Part shown: positions 20,874-31,355 of the stretch, piece after piece
Numbering within the stretch: position 1 is the stretch's first letter
Layout of the letters: each line of letters begins with the position of its first letter
DNA from: Lentimicrobium sp.
GTDB taxonomy: Bacteria > Bacteroidota > Bacteroidia > Bacteroidales > Lentimicrobiaceae
Assembly: GCA_024709105.1 (NCBI GenBank)
Contig: JANJXJ010000090.1
Span: forward strand, 1-34,904
DNA: 34,904 bases
Reading direction: 5' to 3'
The notes under the pieces: generated by a model
Told to the model about the DNA's origin: nothing
The model's database searches: none
Seen by the model: the letters and a program-made list of their open reading frames with translations, nothing else
Position numbers and translations under genes: made by a program

Positions 20874-22253
20874 TTATAATTGTGGTCCTGCAGCAACCAG
20901 GCGTTTGCCTTCGTCGTTGTCGGTGTATTTTTCAAAATTATCAATAAACCTCTTGGCCAGATCTTTTGCTTTGACATCCCAATCGGCGGCAGTGGGGTAG
21001 GTGTCGCGGGGATCAAGCACAGCCGGGTTAACGCCATGTAATTCAGTAGGAACTTCAAGATTGAAATATGGAATCATTTTGGTTGGAGCGTGGTCAATTG
21101 AGCCATCCAGAATTGCATCAATGATCGCACGGGTATCTTTGATGGAGATGCGTTTGCCTGTTCCATTCCATCCTGTATTTACCAGATATGCTTTTGCTCC
21201 TGATTTTTCCATACGTTTTACGAGCTCAACACCATATTTGGTTGGATGCAGAGTTAAGAACGCATTTCCAAAACAAGCTGAGAAAGTAGGCTGGGGAGTG
21301 GTAACTCCGCGCTCGGTACCTGCCAGTTTGGCTGTGAATCCGGAGAGGAAGTGATATTTGGTTTGTTCGGCAGTCAATTTTGAAACCGGAGGCAACACAC
21401 CAAAAGCATCGGCAGTAAGGAAAATAACCTTGGTTGCATGTCCGCCTTTTGAAACCGGTTTAACAATGTTGTCAATGTGGTAGATGGGATAAGATACCCT
21501 GGTATTCTCAGTTTTGGAGGCATCAGCAAAATCAATGGTTCCATCGGGGAGAACTACCAGATTTTCGAGCAATGCATCGCGGCGGATGGCATGATAGATG
21601 TCTGGTTCGTTTTCTTCGCTTAAATTAATGCATTTGGCATAACAACCGCCTTCAAAATTGAAAACGCCCTCGTCGTCCCAGCCATGTTCATCATCTCCGA
21701 TAAGTGCACGTTTAGGATCGGCCGAAAGGGTGGTTTTTCCGGTTCCTGAAAGCCCGAAGAAAATGGCAACATCGCCTTCCTTGCCCATATTGGCGGAGCA
21801 ATGCATAGAAGCTATACCTTTGAGCGGCAGGTAGTAATTCATCATAGAGAAAATGCCTTTTTTCATTTCCCCGCCATACCAGCTGCCACCAACAATCTGA
21901 ACTCTTTCCTTAAGGTTGAATGCAACAAAATTTTCAGAATTTAATCCCTGTTCCTTCCACTGCGGGTTGATGGCCTTGGCGCCATTGATCAGCACAAAAT
22001 CGGGATGAAAATTTGCAAGTTCTTCTTCGGTTGGCCTGATAAACATGTTTTTTACAAAATGAGCCTGCCATGCAACTTCCATAATAAACCTGACACTCAG
22101 GCGGGAATCATGGTTTGCACCGGCAAAAGCATCAACCACATACAATTTTTTGCCCGACAACTGTTTGGCAACAATCTTTTTCAAATGTGCCCATATCTCA
22201 GGCGTGATGGGCTTGTTGTCGTTTTTACCGATGGTGCTCCACCAAACGGTATT
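20874..22253 (-). CDS. PckA C-terminal part after the stop
   Basis: This is the downstream open part of pckA in the same frame, 460 codons including the stop. It holds the ATP-binding P-loop, metal and substrate loops, but lacks the N-terminal oxaloacetate-binding Arg. A TTG at 22184 ([12 protein letters not shown]) could in principle restart translation, but the product would begin inside a conserved domain, so function is doubtful. Treat it as a fragment of the gene above. Confidence 0.6.
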
Positions 22254-22508
22254 TTAGCTCACTTCGTCGCGAACGATGTACTTGTCTTTGGGCGAACGGC
22301 CGGTGAAAATGCCGGTATCTACCGAAACGGCTCCCGATTTGGTTAAAACTCCTCTTTCAAATCCCTCAAGCGAAGGGTCCATTTCATGCTCAAAAAGCAA
22401 TTCAAACGAAGGATTGTAAATAATTTCTTTGACATCAACAATGCCGTAAAGACTGAGATCTATTGCCTGGCCGGAAGCAATGGCAACGGTGTTTGACTGG
22501 TTGGTCAT
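22254..22508 (-). CDS. PckA N-terminal fragment (84 residues)
   Basis: This is the upstream open part of pckA, from ATG 22508 to TAA 22254. It contains the start and the [12 protein letters not shown] substrate motif, but no nucleotide-binding site. Alone it cannot be an active carboxykinase. Confidence 0.6.
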
Positions 22509-22580: not shown

Positions 22581-22594
22581 TGCAAACGTTTGCA
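22581..22594. promoter_or_regulatory. Perfect palindrome, LacI/CcpA-type operator candidate
   Basis: TGCAAACGTTTGCA is an exact 14-bp palindrome with a central CG. With its flanking bases it fits the Gram-positive cre consensus WTGNAANCGNWWNCAW. It overlaps the end of the pckA -7 element and would cover the expected transcription start, a natural place for repression of a gluconeogenic gene. The cognate regulator is unknown; CcpA itself is a Firmicutes protein, so another LacI-family protein would be expected. Confidence 0.5.
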
Positions 22595-22600
22595 AAAGTA
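22593..22600 (-). promoter_or_regulatory. -7 element for pckA
   Basis: The minus strand reads TACTTTTG, an exact TAnnTTTG match, about 85 nt upstream of the pckA ATG. No clear -33 TTTG was seen, which may mean an activator is needed. Confidence 0.5.
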
Positions 22601-22763: not shown

Positions 22764-24002
22764 TCAGCATTTTCGGTAAACAATTGCAACCACTGTGCGG
22801 TCGTCGCCTCCCATATTAACAGTGAGCCCGTAAGGACGCTCTGCGGGGATGTTGATTTGTGCTTCGCCGGCATTTCCGGTGAGTTGTTCCCAGATGGTAA
22901 CTGCCTGATGCACACCTGTAGCTCCGGTAGGGTGGCCCCAGCCAATCAGTCCTCCGGTAGTATTAACCGGAATTTTGCCCTTGCGGGAAGTATGTCCTTC
23001 AATAACAAAATCGGCACCTTTGCCCTCTTCGGCCAGGCCAATGGCTTCCATCCCCAGAATTCCGGCTATGGTGAAGCAGTCGTGTGTTTCAACTGTAGCC
23101 AGATCTGATGCTGTAATTCCTGCCGAATCAAGTGCCTGCTTTACGGCAAAAGCCACCGTACTCAGGCGGGTGAGGTCGTCGGGCAGTGCTGTAATATCAT
23201 CGGCAGCATGTCCAACTCCAACTACTTCAACGGCCTGATTTAAAGCTACTCCGCAGCGTTGCAAACCTTCTTCGCTCACAATGGCAATGGATGAAGCCCC
23301 ATCTGACACCTTGGAGCAATCAAAAACATTCAGATGGTCGGTAAAGCTGCGCGGATTGGGTTCTGTAAGTCCTTGTGACTCAAGGTCGGCTACCTGGTTG
23401 GTATATTCCTGCGCAGTAGGGCAGAGGCGGGCATTTTCAATGGCATTTTTATACCATACTGCAAAGGCTTTGCGGGCCTTATCGCGCCCGACTTTTTCGA
23501 AGTAAGCACCGGCTCTGTCACTGAACTGACCCGGAAAAAAATAGGCATGGCCTTCTTTCCTGCGTTTAAACCATCCGGCACCTGCTAGTATGTCAGCACC
23601 GTAAATGGCCTTGACCGTATTCTGAACTTCTACACCCAATGCAAGTACAACCTCTGCACTTCCTGAAAGTACTGACTTTATACCTGTGGCAAGTGCCAGC
23701 CCGCCGGAAGCGCAGGCCCCTTCAACCCTGATTGAAGGTTTTAGTCTTAGCTGCGGGTCAATCATGCCCAGAAAAGCACCCAGATGAGCCTGCTTGTTGA
23801 AACGCGAGGCCATAAAATTGCCTACAACGCCTTCATCAACATGAGCAGCACCGCCAATTTGAGCCAAAGTGCCTTTGCCTGCTTCCTCAATATAATGCTC
23901 CAGCCCGGGCCTCTCTTTCTTGGGATTGAACTCTTTGCGGCCTGTTCCCATGGATACAGTGTTGTATCCGGCAATCATATATATTTTTTTGTGTGGTTTC
24001 AT
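22764..24002 (-). CDS. SCP2/SCPx-type thiolase (acetyl-CoA C-acyltransferase)
   Basis: A 412-residue thiolase that would cleave 3-ketoacyl-CoA with CoA, or condense acyl-CoAs. The nucleophile is Cys97 in VEGACASGG. His307 lies in ETHDCF and His357 in GWGHPTGATG, after NTTGG. The C-terminal CGG cysteine of classical thiolases is replaced by NMGGDD, as in the SCP2-thiolase branch, whose reaction direction and chain-length preference vary. The start is ATG 24002; Met9 is an alternative. It lies 54 nt downstream of the 3-hydroxyacyl-CoA dehydrogenase gene on the same strand and completes a hydratase-dehydrogenase-thiolase set, so acyl-CoA oxidation is the likeliest role. Confidence 0.87.
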   Translation of the reverse strand: MKPHKKIYMIAGYNTVSMGTGRKEFNPKKERPGLEHYIEEAGKGTLAQIGGAAHVDEGVVGNFMASRFNKQAHLGAFLGMIDPQLRLKPSIRVEGACASGGLALATGIKSVLSGSAEVVLALGVEVQNTVKAIYGADILAGAGWFKRRKEGHAYFFPGQFSDRAGAYFEKVGRDKARKAFAVWYKNAIENARLCPTAQEYTNQVADLESQGLTEPNPRSFTDHLNVFDCSKVSDGASSIAIVSEEGLQRCGVALNQAVEVVGVGHAADDITALPDDLTRLSTVAFAVKQALDSAGITASDLATVETHDCFTIAGILGMEAIGLAEEGKGADFVIEGHTSRKGKIPVNTTGGLIGWGHPTGATGVHQAVTIWEQLTGNAGEAQINIPAERPYGLTVNMGGDDRTVVAIVYRKC

Positions 24003-24056
24003 GCTTGTGTTTTTGATTATTTGAAAAGATGAAAAAGATGATTCTTCAGCTGAGAA

Positions 24057-25394
24057 CTAAACAACAAACTCGTTAACCGGTCCGTAGGCATGGAAAAATC
24101 CGGTAAGCATTACCGTGTTGACATCAGCTGAATTGGCCGCAACTCCGTCAGAAACTAATTTTAGCCCGATTTCGCGACTGCGCTTACCATATTCCAGCGC
24201 CAGAGCAGCTCCTTTTTCACTCATCCCTTTGTAGTGCTGATAAGCTTTTGCGGCAAGGCTCTCTTTTTCGGAGGATTTGACAAGATTTTTCCAGGGCAAA
24301 GCTACCGCCGGCAATTCTCCCAGCCATGCATCGGCACTTGCCGAAAACTCTGAAAATGCAACATAGCTGCCTGTATCTGCTGAGTAAACAGCAACTGGCC
24401 TGCCTTTTTCGTATTTAAGGAAGCCATCTTTCTGGCTGCCATCAGCATACTGACCTCCTTTGACTCCTTTTTCAAACATTTCATCGAGCAGGGAAGAGTG
24501 CAGAGTTTCGCCTTCCATATATGGGTCCATTACTTTCATGATGAATCTAACCACATCAATTCCAACATAGTCAATCAGCTGAAAGATACCCATGGGGCGC
24601 ATCATCCAGTCCTGACTTACTTTGTTCATGCAATACACTGCTTCGTGCAGCGGCATAAGGCTTTTTAATTCAAGCGCCTTGTTGATTCCATGCAGTGCAT
24701 CGCGCATAAAGTGGCCGTTGCCGATAAAGCCTGCAATATCGTTGGATGGTACCACCACCTTACGCATATTTTTTGCGAGTTGAAGTGCAAATTCTTTCAT
24801 TTCTGAACTGTTTTCACTGATGGTGATCAGTTCTACCAGCTTTTGAACAGCAGGAGGATTGTAAAAATGAAAGCCCAGTATCCGCCCTTCGAGCGAAGCC
24901 GATTGGTTAAGCCCGCCAATGGGAACCGAAGAGGTGTTGGTGAAAAACCAGGGCTGGTTGGGGTTGTTGCTGTTGATCTGGGTAAACAAACGGGTCTTTA
25001 AACCTGCATCTTCGCTCACTGCCTCAAAAATCAGGGTGCTGTCGTAAGCGGCTTCAAGGCGGGTGCCAGGCCTGATCACCGACATCACATCCGAAATATA
25101 GGCTTCAATAATATCGCTGTTTTCAATAAGGTCGGCACGATCGGCATACAACTTGCGCAATTGTACTGTTTTCTTTTCGGCAGCTTTCAGTACCTGTGCC
25201 CTGATGTAGCTGAGCAAACCGGGCAAAGCAGATGAAGTAACATCAATGGCATTTACAACAAAATGGCGGCCTTTGTTGGCGGGAAGAAGCATCTGATCGG
25301 CCACTTCAAGTGCCGATAGCAGCAAAATGCCGCTTCCCATTTTGCCGGCAGCGCCTAAAACGCTAACATTTGTGAGTCTGTCTGTGTAATTCAT
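24057..25394 (-). CDS. 3-hydroxyacyl-CoA dehydrogenase
   Basis: This enzyme oxidises (S)-3-hydroxyacyl-CoA to 3-ketoacyl-CoA with NAD+. The 445-residue protein opens with a Rossmann motif VLGAAGKMGSGI (12-23). It continues with FEAVSEDAGLK (123-133), TNTSSVPI (152-159) and GFHFYNPPAVQKLVEL with the catalytic His176. DIAGFIGNGHFMRD leads into the C-terminal dimerisation domains, present as an extended helical region. The length exceeds the short HbdA type (about 280) and lacks a fused hydratase; the hydratase is a separate gene upstream. The upstream gap of 208 nt contains a 7/8 -7 match (25590-25597), so it may have its own promoter with a long leader. The thiolase follows 54 nt after its stop. 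Confidence 0.88.
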   Translation of the reverse strand: MNYTDRLTNVSVLGAAGKMGSGILLLSALEVADQMLLPANKGRHFVVNAIDVTSSALPGLLSYIRAQVLKAAEKKTVQLRKLYADRADLIENSDIIEAYISDVMSVIRPGTRLEAAYDSTLIFEAVSEDAGLKTRLFTQINSNNPNQPWFFTNTSSVPIGGLNQSASLEGRILGFHFYNPPAVQKLVELITISENSSEMKEFALQLAKNMRKVVVPSNDIAGFIGNGHFMRDALHGINKALELKSLMPLHEAVYCMNKVSQDWMMRPMGIFQLIDYVGIDVVRFIMKVMDPYMEGETLHSSLLDEMFEKGVKGGQYADGSQKDGFLKYEKGRPVAVYSADTGSYVAFSEFSASADAWLGELPAVALPWKNLVKSSEKESLAAKAYQHYKGMSEKGAALALEYGKRSREIGLKLVSDGVAANSADVNTVMLTGFFHAYGPVNEFVV

Positions 25395-25602
25395 TGGGTT
25401 GGTTTTATCGTTTTATGTGATTTTTTGTTGAAGGAAGAAAGCCGATGCACCAAATGGGCTTTGTTTTAAGCAGTTTGTTTTTAGCTAAAGTCATGACAAC
25501 AGGTGTTGCCGGCTGTAAATATATAGCATTATTTAAATATGTGCATACGTTTCCGGTGGAAATTCTGCGCCATACAAGAAACGAATGCACAAAGGAAAAT
25601 AT

Positions 25603-26370
25603 TTACCAGTTTGGTTTGCGTTTTTCGAGAAAGGCTTTCATACCTTCGAGGCCTTCGTTTCCAAATGGGTCGCCAAAGTGTTTTTGTTCCAGCAATTCAC
25701 CTTCCTGATAATGCATTTCCACTCCTTTACGGGTAACTTCTTTAACAAGTTTAACTGCCATCGGGCCTTTGGCTGCGATATTTTCAGCCATTTTCATGGT
25801 TTCGGGAATCAAAGCTTCCGGTTCTGTTACTTTTTGTACCAACCTCATCTGCAGTGCAGTATTGGCATCAATTACCTCGGCGGTGGTGAGCAGCCAAAGG
25901 GCATCGGCCAGGTTGGTAAGCCGGGGCAGGCGCTGGGTTCCGGCGTAACCGGGAATAAGGCCCAGATTTACCTCGGGTTGCCCGAATCTGGCTGTTGCCG
26001 ATGCAATCCTGAAATCGCAGGCCATAGCCAGTTCCATACCTCCGCCAAGCGCAAAGCCGTTGATGGCAGCGATCACCGGAAAAGGTAAAGTGGCGAACCG
26101 GTTAAAAACTGCTTGTCCACGTGCCGAAAATGCTCGCCCTTCATCAGGTGACATATTAACCATTTCGGCAATGTCGGCTCCGGCGACAAACGCTTTGCCT
26201 TCTCCTGTTATAATCAGGGCTCTTATTTCGCTGTTGCCTGAAATACTGGTAATAAAGTCGTCCATTTCGTTGAAAAAAACTGAGTTCAGCGCATTGAGTG
26301 CTGACGGACGGCTGATGGTAAGCAACATAACAGGGCCCTTTTGCTCAGGCCTCAGGATGGTGTAATCCAT
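25603..26370 (-). CDS. Enoyl-CoA hydratase (crotonase)
   Basis: This enzyme adds water across the trans-2 double bond of enoyl-CoA. From ATG 26370 the protein has 255 residues, the usual crotonase size. A longer in-frame reading to 26427 adds 19 residues unlike the family and would run into the promoter. The oxyanion-hole AGAD lies at 64-67. The catalytic glutamates are Glu113 (GGGMELAMACD) and Glu133 (QPEVNLGLIPGYAGTQRLPR), as in rat crotonase Glu144 and Glu164, so hydratase rather than isomerase activity is expected. It leads a three-gene acyl-CoA oxidation group. A -7-like element lies at 26417-26424. Confidence 0.92.
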   Translation of the reverse strand: MDYTILRPEQKGPVMLLTISRPSALNALNSVFFNEMDDFITSISGNSEIRALIITGEGKAFVAGADIAEMVNMSPDEGRAFSARGQAVFNRFATLPFPVIAAINGFALGGGMELAMACDFRIASATARFGQPEVNLGLIPGYAGTQRLPRLTNLADALWLLTTAEVIDANTALQMRLVQKVTEPEALIPETMKMAENIAAKGPMAVKLVKEVTRKGVEMHYQEGELLEQKHFGDPFGNEGLEGMKAFLEKRKPNW

Positions 26371-26416
26371 AAAAATTACTTTAGGTGGGTTAAGGCTTTT
26401 AAACAGTTTCCTGCTG

Positions 26417-26424
26417 CAAAGGTT
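26417..26424 (-). promoter_or_regulatory. -7 element for the enoyl-CoA hydratase operon
   Basis: The minus strand reads AACCTTTG, a 7/8 match to TAnnTTTG, 47 nt upstream of the ATG at 26370. The ppdK terminator lies just upstream, consistent with an independent transcript. Confidence 0.4.
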
Positions 26425-26451
26425 CAAGCGGGGGGAGTGGTGTAAAGATAA

Positions 26452-26498: not shown

Positions 26499-29309
26499 TT
26501 ACTTCTTTTTTGAAGCTTTTTTCTTGCCGTCGTCTTTCTTTGCCTTTTTGGTTTTGCCTGCAGCTTTTGCAGCGGCTTCTTCCTTAATGGCAGCGTGAGC
26601 AGCAGCCAGACGTGCGATGGGAACGCGGTAAGGTGAACAACTTACGTAGTTCATTCCCACACTGTGGCAGAACTCAACTGATGAAGGCTCTCCACCATGT
26701 TCGCCGCAGATACCTACTTTGAGGTTGGGGCGGGTGATGCGTCCGCGCTCAACGCCCATACGTACGAGCTGTCCAACACCTTCGCGGTCGAGAACCTGGA
26801 AAGGATCGTGTTTCAGGATGCCTTTGTCAAGGTAAACGGGCAGGAATTTGCCGGCGTCGTCTCTTGAATAACCAAAGGTCATCTGGGTAAGGTCGTTGGT
26901 TCCGAATGAGAAGAACTCAGCTGACTCGGCGATTCTGTCGGCGATAAGCGCTGCACGTGGAATCTCGATCATGGTACCTACAAGGAAATCAATTTTATCC
27001 TTGCGTTCATCAAATACTTTCTGAATGGTATCGCGAACGATTTTTTCCTGCATCTTCATCTCTTCGAGGGTTCCTGTGAGAGGAATCATAATCTCGGGAA
27101 CAGCTTTGATGCCTTTTTTCTTCAGGTTAAGGGCTGCTTCGATGATGGCGCGTGCCTGCATTTCCGAAATTTCGGGATAGGTATTTCCCAAACGGCAGCC
27201 ACGGTGGCCAAGCATGGGGTTGAATTCGGCAAGATCGTGAACTTTCTGTTTAACTTCCTCAACAGAAATGCCCATTTCTTTTGCCATCTCAAGCTGATTG
27301 GCTTCTTCGTGGGGAACAAATTCATGTAAAGGAGGATCGAGCAAACGAACAGTTACAGGGAGATCCTGCATGGCTTCGAAAATACCTTCAAAATCTGAAC
27401 GCTGAATGGGGAGGAGCTTCTCGAGTCCTTTGCGGCGTCCGGTTTCGTCGTCGGCAAGAATCATTTCGCGCATGGCTTTGATGCGGTCGCCTTCGAAGAA
27501 CATATGCTCTGTGCGGCACAATCCAATACCCTGTGCACCAAAGTTGCGGGCAACTTTTGAGTCGTTGGGAGTATCAGCATTGGTGCGAACCAGCATGCGT
27601 GAATATTTGTCAGCCAGTTTCATCAGCTTGCCAAAGTCGCCGCTGAGCGAAGGATCCATGGTCTGGATTTTGCCTTCATAAACTTCGCCGGTGCTTCCGT
27701 TGAGTGAAATCCAGTCGCCTTCGTTGAAAGTTACGCCATCAATAACCAGCTTGCGGTTTTTGTAGTCAATCTTGAGGCTGCCGGCACCTGAAATACAGCA
27801 TTTACCCATACCACGGGCAACAACAGCAGCGTGTGAGGTCATACCGCCACGGGCAGTAAGGATACCCTGTGCAACATTCATACCTTTAAGGTCTTCGGGA
27901 GAGGTTTCGATACGAACCAAAACCACTTTGTTTCCTTTGGCAACCCATTTTTCAGCTTCGTCGGCAAAAAATACAATCTGTCCGGTAGCTGCTCCTGGTG
28001 ATGCGGGAAGTCCTTTGGCAAGAATTTTGGCTTTCTTGAGGGCGGCAGTTTCAAATACAGGGTGCAGTAACTCGTCGAGTTTTGCGGGTTCGCAGCGGAG
28101 AATGGCTTCTTTTTCAGTGAGAATGCCTTGTTTGAGCATATCCATGGCAATTTTTACCATGGCAGCGCCGGTGCGTTTTCCGTTGCGGGTCTGAAGCATC
28201 CACAGTTTACCATCCTGAATGGTGAACTCCAGATCCTGCATATCGCGGTAATGATCTTCAAGTTTCTGCTGAATTTCGAGCAGTTCCTTATAGATGGCCG
28301 GCATTGCTTCTTCGAGTGAAGGAAATTTTGAAGCACGCTCCTTTTCAGAAACATTGGCAAGTTTTGCCCAGCGTTTTGAACCTTCTTTGGTGATTTGCTG
28401 AGGTGTGCGGATACCGGCAACAACGTCTTCTCCCTGAGCATCAATCAGGTATTCTCCATTGAACAGGTCTTCTCCGGTTCCGGCGTCGCGGGTAAATGCA
28501 ACCCCGGTTCCTGAATTTTTACCCATATTGCCGAATACCATAGCCTGTACGTTAACGGCTGTTCCCCATTCTTCGGGAATGTTGTTGAGCTTGCGGTAGT
28601 ATACAGCGCGTTCGTTCATCCAGCTGTCGAAAACTGCAGTAACTGAACCCCAGAGCTGTTCCCATGGATCGGTGGGGAAATCGTGGCCGGTAACTTTTTT
28701 AACCGCTTTTTTGAAGCGTTTTACAAGTTCTTTAAGGTCTTCAACGGTAAATTCGGTATCTAATTCAATGCCTTTCTCTTCTTTCATGTGTTCCATGATT
28801 TCTTCGAAAGGATCAATGTCTTCTTTTGATGCGGGTTTCATGCCGAGAACCACATCGCCGAACATTTGAACAAAACGGCGGTATGAATCCCATGCGAAGC
28901 GCTCATTGCCCGATTTTTTGGCAATACTTTCAACGGCTTCGTCGTTAAGACCAAGGTTTAACACGGTGTCCATCATGCCGGGCATTGAAGCACGCGAGCC
29001 GGAACGAACCGAAAGCAGCAGCGGATTCTTTTTGTCGCCAAAGCCTGAACCCATAATTTTTTCAACATACTTAACGGCAGCTTCCACTTCGCCTTTAATC
29101 ATGGCGATGGTTTTTTCAGCTCCCAGGTTGTTGTAGTCGGTACAAACTTCGGTGGTGATGGTGAATCCCGGAGGTACCGGCACCCCAATCAGGTTCATTT
29201 CGCAGAGGTTGGCACCTTTACCGCCAAGCAGGTTTCTCATACTGGCATCGCCTTCGGCTTTTTTATTCCCGAAAGTGTAAACCGATTTTCTGGTCTTCTC
29301 TTTTCCCAT
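26499..29309 (-). CDS. ppdK: Pyruvate, phosphate dikinase
   Basis: PPDK interconverts pyruvate, ATP and phosphate with PEP, AMP and pyrophosphate in the cytosol. The 936-residue protein has the N-terminal nucleotide-binding domain (LLGGKGANLCEMNLIGVPVPPGF). The swivelling central domain carries the phosphorylated His493 in GGMTSHAAVVARGMGKCC. The C-terminal PEP barrel has RTEHMFF, FGTNDLTQMTFG and GICGEHGGEPSSVEF, with the catalytic Cys. The last about 30 residues form a Lys/Ala-rich tail (KTKKAKKDDGKKKASKKK) beyond the usual end of the enzyme, which is unusual. The gene stands alone between a strong -7 element and a strong terminator. With PPi-type Pfk in the same window it fits a PPi-linked glycolysis. 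Confidence 0.96.
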   Translation of the reverse strand: MGKEKTRKSVYTFGNKKAEGDASMRNLLGGKGANLCEMNLIGVPVPPGFTITTEVCTDYNNLGAEKTIAMIKGEVEAAVKYVEKIMGSGFGDKKNPLLLSVRSGSRASMPGMMDTVLNLGLNDEAVESIAKKSGNERFAWDSYRRFVQMFGDVVLGMKPASKEDIDPFEEIMEHMKEEKGIELDTEFTVEDLKELVKRFKKAVKKVTGHDFPTDPWEQLWGSVTAVFDSWMNERAVYYRKLNNIPEEWGTAVNVQAMVFGNMGKNSGTGVAFTRDAGTGEDLFNGEYLIDAQGEDVVAGIRTPQQITKEGSKRWAKLANVSEKERASKFPSLEEAMPAIYKELLEIQQKLEDHYRDMQDLEFTIQDGKLWMLQTRNGKRTGAAMVKIAMDMLKQGILTEKEAILRCEPAKLDELLHPVFETAALKKAKILAKGLPASPGAATGQIVFFADEAEKWVAKGNKVVLVRIETSPEDLKGMNVAQGILTARGGMTSHAAVVARGMGKCCISGAGSLKIDYKNRKLVIDGVTFNEGDWISLNGSTGEVYEGKIQTMDPSLSGDFGKLMKLADKYSRMLVRTNADTPNDSKVARNFGAQGIGLCRTEHMFFEGDRIKAMREMILADDETGRRKGLEKLLPIQRSDFEGIFEAMQDLPVTVRLLDPPLHEFVPHEEANQLEMAKEMGISVEEVKQKVHDLAEFNPMLGHRGCRLGNTYPEISEMQARAIIEAALNLKKKGIKAVPEIMIPLTGTLEEMKMQEKIVRDTIQKVFDERKDKIDFLVGTMIEIPRAALIADRIAESAEFFSFGTNDLTQMTFGYSRDDAGKFLPVYLDKGILKHDPFQVLDREGVGQLVRMGVERGRITRPNLKVGICGEHGGEPSSVEFCHSVGMNYVSCSPYRVPIARLAAAHAAIKEEAAAKAAGKTKKAKKDDGKKKASKKK

Positions 29310-29680: not shown

Positions 29681-30595
29681 CTATTTGTTTATGTATCCTA
29701 GTTTTTCTTCTAATGTGGAACAAATTTTACGATGTTTTACAGGATTTTGTTCTTTGAGAAGTTGAATGTTTAATAATTTCCATTGTACTGCCGGAAAAAT
29801 ACTGAAGTCATATAAACCCCAGTCGGGCAATCCTTGCTCAAATTTTAATAGAAAGTTCTTATCTGCAGCGGAAAGTGAGTTATGTATCTTTTCGATCAGA
29901 AATGATCTGGCACTCTCAAAGTCGGAGTAGGTAAATTTTTGTTGGGTCATTCCTGTAAATTGGTTCTCAAAAGCCTGTTTCATGCTGGTAAGGTTTGGAA
30001 ACAGCAATTCTGATACTGGCCTGCCCGAGCTTAACAGGTAAAAAAGAAATCCTTTCTTTAAGTTCTCGTCTATTTGTTGTGTTTTAAACATTTGCTGTAT
30101 ATCAAACAAATCTCTCGGATGCTGTCTGTCAAGTGCTGCACAAATTTTTCCTCCATACAAGTGTGATTTTTCAACTATCTGGATTTCACAAAAGGCATCA
30201 TATTCCTTTTGTGCTTTATCACAGAGTGTCTTTATTTCAGGAGGACTATAACATCCGCGTTTTACAAGATTCACCTCTACTTTAATAGTGGCCTCACTAT
30301 TTGAAACAATTATTTTGGCTTCCGATTTTTTATGCTGTGCAAAAATGCCAGGTAAAGTTTTATTAATTTGTAACGCTATAAGCTGCAATGCTTCACTAAT
30401 TCCTGCCAATGAGTTTTCCCGGCTGGTAACCGGAAGGTATGTTAAGTCAATGTCAACCGACAAACGTGGCATGTTGTTGTAAAACATATTGATAGCTGTT
30501 ACTCCATGAAGGGCAAAGTTCTTTTCTTTAGCTACCAGAGGTAAAACCGAAAGCAGCAGGCTTACTTGTTTTTTATAATCTGTGCGTTCCATCAT
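29681..30595 (-). CDS. AbiEii-type nucleotidyltransferase toxin
   Basis: A 304-residue member of the AbiEii/AbiGii toxin family (DNA polymerase beta-like nucleotidyltransferase fold). These are the toxins of AbiE bacteriostatic toxin-antitoxin and abortive-infection systems. Visible motifs are LHGVTAINMF (29-38) in the GG/S position, SVDIDL with Asp48 and Asp50 as metal ligands, KVEVNLV (105-111), and a KICAALDRQHPRDLFDI block (150-166) with Lys150 and Asp162. In relatives the toxin transfers nucleotides to an RNA target. It overlaps the upstream antitoxin gene by 23 bp, the classical bicistronic layout with the antitoxin first. Surrounding DNA is noticeably AT-rich compared with the metabolic genes, hinting at acquisition. 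Confidence 0.85.
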   Translation of the reverse strand: MMERTDYKKQVSLLLSVLPLVAKEKNFALHGVTAINMFYNNMPRLSVDIDLTYLPVTSRENSLAGISEALQLIALQINKTLPGIFAQHKKSEAKIIVSNSEATIKVEVNLVKRGCYSPPEIKTLCDKAQKEYDAFCEIQIVEKSHLYGGKICAALDRQHPRDLFDIQQMFKTQQIDENLKKGFLFYLLSSGRPVSELLFPNLTSMKQAFENQFTGMTQQKFTYSDFESARSFLIEKIHNSLSAADKNFLLKFEQGLPDWGLYDFSIFPAVQWKLLNIQLLKEQNPVKHRKICSTLEEKLGYINK

Positions 30596-31355
30596 TTTCC
30601 AGTTCTTTGGGAACAGTCATATTGTAAGCAGCTACAAAAACTCCGTCGGAAACCAGACTCCGCTTGCCACTTCCCATATCTATATTTTTAGTATTCAGGT
30701 GTTTAAACCAAGCATGCCCTGCCTTTTCAGCCAGAAAAAGGAACAGCCGTTTTACTTTTACCGAATTGCAATTCTCTAAAAGCTCCTGTACGTTTGCAGG
30801 ATTCAAATTATTAAGGCTTTCCATGATCTCAAAACACTCCACAAGGTCTTGTTTATTCGGTGACAGATACAAACATTCCATCATTGCCCTTGCTGGTGAA
30901 GAAATCTTTATTACTATATTTTTTTGCTCAGTTTCAACCAAGCCTTTGCCAGCAGGTAAAATATTTGAGGTTATATACCGGATATCTACACCCCAGTCAT
31001 GTTTTATAAACCATGAAGGTAGGCGTTCCCCATGATTGCCAAAAAGATAAACCACATTTCTGCCAAAACTCAGATAATGGCTTTTTCCCATAAGAGCCAA
31101 CGCAGTTTTAGCTGCAGGATGTATACTTAAATTCAACTGCTGTTGTAAAGAGTATACAGCTCCCATATATTCAACTTTATCTCCATACCTTGTCATAGCA
31201 CCGTTGCCTATTGAGTGCAACCAATGACTGTTGCGATAGGTTCGCAAGAGCTCAGAGCTGTATCCCTGTTTGAACAACCAACTGCTTGTCAGTACAACTC
31301 CGGGAGGCTGAATTTGCATCAACTTGTTTATTTTTGACCCATTTTCTGTATGCAT
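30573..31355 (-). CDS. AbiEi-type antitoxin/transcriptional repressor
   Basis: A 260-residue protein matching the layout of AbiEi antitoxins. The N-terminal winged-helix-like region (about 10-60: PPGVVLTSSWLFKQGYSSELLRTYRNSHWLHSIGNGAMTR) should bind DNA, and a larger C-terminal domain (80-250) resembles the AbiEi_3 type. These proteins both neutralise the toxin and repress their own promoter. The start is ATG 31355; Met13 at 31319 would give a longer leader after the candidate promoter and cannot be excluded. Its 3' end overlaps the toxin gene. A near-perfect inverted repeat sits immediately upstream (31362-31379) as the expected operator. The family call is moderately firm. Confidence 0.78.
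   Translation of the reverse strand: MHTENGSKINKLMQIQPPGVVLTSSWLFKQGYSSELLRTYRNSHWLHSIGNGAMTRYGDKVEYMGAVYSLQQQLNLSIHPAAKTALALMGKSHYLSFGRNVVYLFGNHGERLPSWFIKHDWGVDIRYITSNILPAGKGLVETEQKNIVIKISSPARAMMECLYLSPNKQDLVECFEIMESLNNLNPANVQELLENCNSVKVKRLFLFLAEKAGHAWFKHLNTKNIDMGSGKRSLVSDGVFVAAYNMTVPKELENDGTHRL

Follow-up and report, generated by a model that had tools for sequence, protein, structure and literature searches.

A single in-frame stop codon in an otherwise undecayed phosphoenolpyruvate carboxykinase gene of Lentimicrobium

Natural inactivation of pckA, the gene for phosphoenolpyruvate (PEP) carboxykinase (PEPCK), has a described precedent in Brucella: passages of three papers report an inactive pckA in B. 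abortus, B. melitensis and B. ovis (PMC5896264; PMC2677664; PMC7427901), name pyruvate phosphate dikinase (PpdK) as the remaining source of PEP (PMC5896264; PMC7427901) and describe B. abortus 2308W as dependent on PpdK alone for PEP synthesis (PMC5896264; PMC2677664; PMC7427901). A second comparison comes from Trypanosoma brucei, for which a passage of one report describes PEPCK and pyruvate phosphate dikinase (PPDK) as redundant in gluconeogenesis from proline, with glucose 6-phosphate still labelled in each single null (PMC6312356). The locus described here resembles the Brucella case, as those passages present it, in that a small natural lesion interrupts pckA while the dikinase gene is intact. 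However, the Brucella lesion is a frameshift in the 3' part of the gene, reported there as common to every sequenced strain of B. abortus and B. melitensis, whereas ours is a nonsense codon near the 5' end and occurs in one genome only. With T. brucei the likeness lies in the redundancy of PEPCK and PPDK, although those nulls were made by gene deletion and in a eukaryote. Given these two precedents, the idea that PPDK stands in for PEPCK in our organism is a reasonable one, by analogy.

The window, that is, the whole stretch of 34,904 nucleotides analysed, is one complete contig (C37) of the source genome, a 4.47-Mb assembly of 239 contigs that is 96.8% complete. On its minus strand, positions 20874-22508 encode an ATP-dependent PEPCK of 544 codons and a stop, broken at codon 85. 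Translation of this interval gave a single internal stop, the TAA at 22254-22256, and a terminal TAA at the natural end of the gene; an N-terminal fragment of 84 codons (22257-22508, minus) is thus followed by a frame of 459 codons and its TAA (20874-22253, minus). This bears out the earlier note, in which reading was said to continue for 460 codons, stop included, after a TAA at codon 85. The fragment and the downstream frame align with successive stretches of the pckA model NF006819 (profile positions 8-76 and 79-538), the gene read through the stop scores 688.3 bits against PF01293 over its whole length, and the part after the stop scores 790.7 bits against TIGR00224. Since a 459-codon frame matches PEPCK along its full length, this is a gene, and chance is no issue. 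The length is also as had been claimed, close to that of the Escherichia coli enzyme (544 against 540). Lys258, the P-loop lysine, lies in the downstream frame and corresponds in the alignment to E. coli Lys254 (structures 1aq2/1ayl), whereas Arg71, in the motif TGRSPKDK, lies 14 codons ahead of the stop and aligns with E. coli Arg65. The stop therefore parts two residues that we take to be functionally important in PEPCK, and the gene lacks the one unbroken frame from which the enzyme could be made. It is the only ATP-dependent PEPCK that we found; a search of the genome for a second PEPCK returned no further ATP type and no GTP type. The stop is a real feature of the sequence and of an ordinary kind; the event is not exotic and, judged from the sequence, does not look like a new way of reading genes.

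Codon 85 was compared across the genus. The genus set comprises 19 genomes, ours included, and a family-wide search returned the same 19; pckA was present in every one (21 match rows, with the copies in G008, G016 and G017 cut by contig ends), and a stop was seen in the row of our genome only, none being found in the other 18. The comparison with relatives that the earlier note had proposed thus reveals no accumulating stops in the genus. At codon 85 the 19 other congeneric loci from these 18 genomes carry GAA (13), AAG (2), GAG (1), AAA (1), CAA (1) or AGG (1), and the two genomes closest to ours by protein, G010 and G013, both carry GAA. Because GAA stands in 13 of the 19, a single G-to-T change explains the TAA and is the simplest history of the codon, and the recent GAA-to-TAA change that had been suggested is upheld by these codons together with the intact state of the rest of the gene. 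Over a wider set of 99 other loci, partly non-independent (UBA5537, L021, is probably the same genome as G005, L008, and a single genome supplied both L018 and L020), residue 85 is Arg in 47, Lys in 24, Glu in 22, Gln in 4 and Ala in 2, and a stop in none. The best named match of the part after the stop was Bacteroidales bacterium UBA5537 (92%). Among viral contigs, a degenerate 30-base pattern for other alleles of this pckA gave no match, and a search for relatives gave three loci at 46-72% identity. Separately, in the pckA of Methylococcaceae UBA975 (L060) a stop falls at aligned position 10, probably ahead of the true start of that gene.

The remainder of the gene is undecayed, as expected of a very young allele or of an error but not of an old pseudogene. 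Our pckA departs at none of the 182 columns that are invariant in the other loci (at least 90 of them present), so the PEPCK motifs, Lys258 among them, are as intact as was first noted, and after the stop it shows zero private changes at columns constant in the genus. Against congeners, codons 86-544 gave dN/dS values of 0.026-0.047 (computable in 11 of 17 comparisons), which lie inside the spread of 64 intact pairs (0.015-0.060, median 0.031). As synonymous sites are near saturation against the congeners (pS 0.64-0.81 over the same codons), the age of the lesion is only loosely bounded; 170 invariant codons after the stop with none changed set a 95% upper bound of about 1.8% per codon (rule of three). 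The one disabling change speaks for an ordinary older pseudogene in decay, yet no second lesion and no relaxation of selection was found in the rest of pckA, and the segment upstream of it is conserved in the six aligned sequences; we give that explanation next to no credence. The gene instead presents, on sequence, what is expected of a fresh nonsense allele: a lone stop, a single step away from the ancestral codon and missing from relatives, in a gene otherwise intact.

We therefore consider that pckA in the sequenced lineage is a null allele of very recent origin, with the intact PPDK as a backup source of PEP, and we put the probability of this at about 0.55. A G-to-T change in the GAA of codon 85 would have created the TAA; translation would then end after 84 residues and yield no active PEPCK, and any product restarted downstream would be without Arg71, which speaks for a null. 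The rest of the gene and its promoter segment would still look as they do under selection because too little time has passed for decay. PPDK would make PEP from pyruvate, so that the cell tolerates the loss, and a PEP carboxylase and two biotin-dependent carboxyltransferase frames may offer other routes round the PEP-pyruvate-oxaloacetate node. The stop, the intact remainder, the absence of the stop from relatives and the intact PPDK are observed; the reality of the base, the null state of the allele and the compensation by PPDK are our inference.

Against the young allele stands the fact that an error in the assembly predicts the same picture: a wholly undecayed pckA fits it equally well. Here a wrong base would have been assembled, through low depth, damaged DNA (G-to-T changes being the class that oxidation produces) or a mixed population, and the pckA of the organism would be intact. 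The lack of any other lesion in pckA and the fragmentation of the assembly into 239 contigs are in keeping with this, and oxidative damage is described as a source of false G>T changes (PMC12390751). In the opposite direction, stops are absent from all 41 ABC-transporter matches in the genome and from the seven other window genes for which the relatives' stretches contain a counterpart, so errors cannot be frequent. Consensus error in short-read assemblies is typically about 1e-5 or less, a rate that would yield few stops per genome. Overall, a consensus error is a serious contender, though we hold it somewhat doubtful. All readings besides a null allele and a consensus error we consider improbable even when taken together.

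How common are isolated stops in this assembly? We screened 388 kb of the genome plus the window for genes split by one in-frame stop, with frameshifts screened in the window only, and 27 of 742 same-frame pairs were retained. The first ATG lies nine or more codons past the stop in 11 of these, pckA among them, and nearer in the other 16. Family searches of five of the 11 identified four as ordinary neighbouring genes and one as a split gene; two more were accounted for within the window, as a dehydrogenase-thiolase boundary and as a frame antisense to phosphofructokinase. The resulting count of one further split gene thus covers, besides pckA, seven of the 11 pairs with a distant ATG (all but those in L115, L119 and L122). 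In this second case a TGA at L118:3934-3936 (contig C187) parts a PF00144 serine hydrolase from its C-terminal DUF3471. Close homologues form one frame of 513-539 amino acids in 15 of 18 congeners, against 438 in our genome; the frame in G005 has 401, and G011 and G016 gave no close match. The stop site is a glycine codon in five aligned relatives (GGA in three, GGT in two). In-frame stop lesions thus occur elsewhere in the assembly, which we count in favour of the young allele, and one event per 388 kb extrapolates to about a dozen for the whole genome, an estimate whose interval is very wide. The L118 stop, too, is one first-position G-to-T step from the codon of its nearest relatives. This mutation class makes up 22.5% of the one-step routes to a stop here, and two of two would arise with odds of about 5%, a weak point in favour of error.

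We also counted stops in pckA among 149 Bacteroidales genomes drawn with every row visible, of which 122 had a PEPCK over the cut-off. Exactly one stop was seen in three: ours (TAA, codon 85), G030 (TAG, position 90) and G066 (TAG, position 106). The latter two (L181, on contig C119, and L182, on C194) resemble our locus in having a single in-frame stop in a pckA that is otherwise open, but belong to other families and to another mutation class, as each TAG replaces a Trp that is invariant in the 99 other loci. In G030 the gene has no departures from invariant columns beyond those shared with its intact congener G146; that of G066, cut by a contig end and covering 176 columns, has one further departure. 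Could young, isolated nonsense mutations strike pckA repeatedly in Bacteroidales, as the three families here would suggest? If so, a null would repeatedly be favoured and then lost where PPDK gives PEP, or codons 85-106 would be special in some way. Excluding our genome, two of 121 PEPCK-bearing genomes (about 2%) carry a single stop, which against a background of about 1 in 250, itself rough since it stems from one split among some 264 sampled genes, has odds of about 0.085 and is not clearly above background. Both stops lie within 22 codons of ours, and three random positions would fall so close (85, 90 and 106 of 544) with odds of about 0.007, a figure judged after the fact. We regard a recurrent target as quite unlikely.

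Two further explanations would have the gene still yield an enzyme. In the first, the TAA is read through or translated as an amino acid, giving full-length PEPCK, in line with the unchanged frame and selection past the stop. However, recoded or readthrough stops should be conserved in relatives and have a tRNA to decode them, whereas a stop occurs at this position in none of the 99 other loci, and all 39 tRNA genes found with the Rfam model were read by ARAGORN without an anticodon TTA, CTA or TCA appearing (150 of 303 first-look candidates were scored in a genome 96.8% complete, so that a suppressor may have been missed). Furthermore, TAA terminates 141 of 245 sampled long genes, ahead of TGA (58) and TAG (46), and the base following the TAA is A, which is not known as a leaky context. 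Readthrough, which had been put forward earlier, therefore finds no backing in the relatives or among the tRNA genes found, and we think it very improbable. In the second, a shorter protein is restarted downstream and might associate with the 84-residue fragment to form a split enzyme. Start-like codons are present in frame, the earliest being TTG 109 (22184) and the earliest ATG codon 143, but the stretch from the stop to codon 143 holds no ATG, and restart would lose 17 of the 182 invariant columns at TTG 109 or 22 of 182 at ATG 143, with Arg71 lost in both. We believe this less still than readthrough.

The PPDK gene (26499-29309, minus) is intact and offers an alternative route to PEP, and the suggestion that it could supply PEP agrees with this. 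One match ended at PPDK residue 898, which proved to reflect a variable Lys-rich tail. PPDK had also been placed beside pckA, which is not so in this genome: genes for a thiolase, a 3-hydroxyacyl-CoA dehydrogenase and an enoyl-CoA hydratase (22764-26427, minus) lie between the two, upstream of the conserved pckA promoter segment. Adjacency does hold in the six congeners compared, where PPDK lies directly upstream of pckA without the three genes (G010, G013, G012, G009, UBA5537 and, by its coordinates, G001); in G010 the thiolase and dehydrogenase genes sit at distances of 11 kb (to PPDK) and 14 kb (to pckA). G030, too, has PPDK directly upstream of pckA, and in G066 no PPDK was found on the 11.9-kb contig that carries pckA. 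Our genome also has two more PPDK_N frames, one PEP carboxylase frame and two PYC_OADA (biotin-dependent carboxyltransferase) frames. An AbiEi/AbiEii type IV toxin-antitoxin pair adjoins PPDK at window positions 29681-31355.

A null pckA had been called striking in such an organism, which we consider too strong. An ATP-dependent PEPCK match was obtained in 334 of 393 sampled Bacteroidales genomes and none in the other 59, two other genomes carry a single pckA stop, and the passages on B. abortus report reliance on PpdK (PMC5896264; PMC7427901). If real, the allele would be a natural pckA null in Bacteroidales and a modest test of PPDK as a replacement for PEPCK, set in an order most of whose sampled members retain PEPCK. 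Mostly, however, the case is a caution that single in-frame stops of this kind need reads before biology is built on them.

The conserved segment upstream of pckA contains TACTTTTG (22593-22600, minus), which fits TAnnTTTG, the Bacteroidetes -7 box consensus, and which reads TAC-N-TTTG in all six aligned sequences. This promoter-like box overlaps a 14-base palindrome, TGCAAACGTTTGCA (22581-22594), that is perfect in our genome only. Shuffled sequences held a match to the palindrome with at most two mismatches in 30 of 100 cases, so by itself it is weak evidence. Its core, TTTGCAA-CG-TTG-A, is identical in all six. The motif is of a type that we take to be LacI-like, and the palindrome is a possible operator for a LacI-type regulator.
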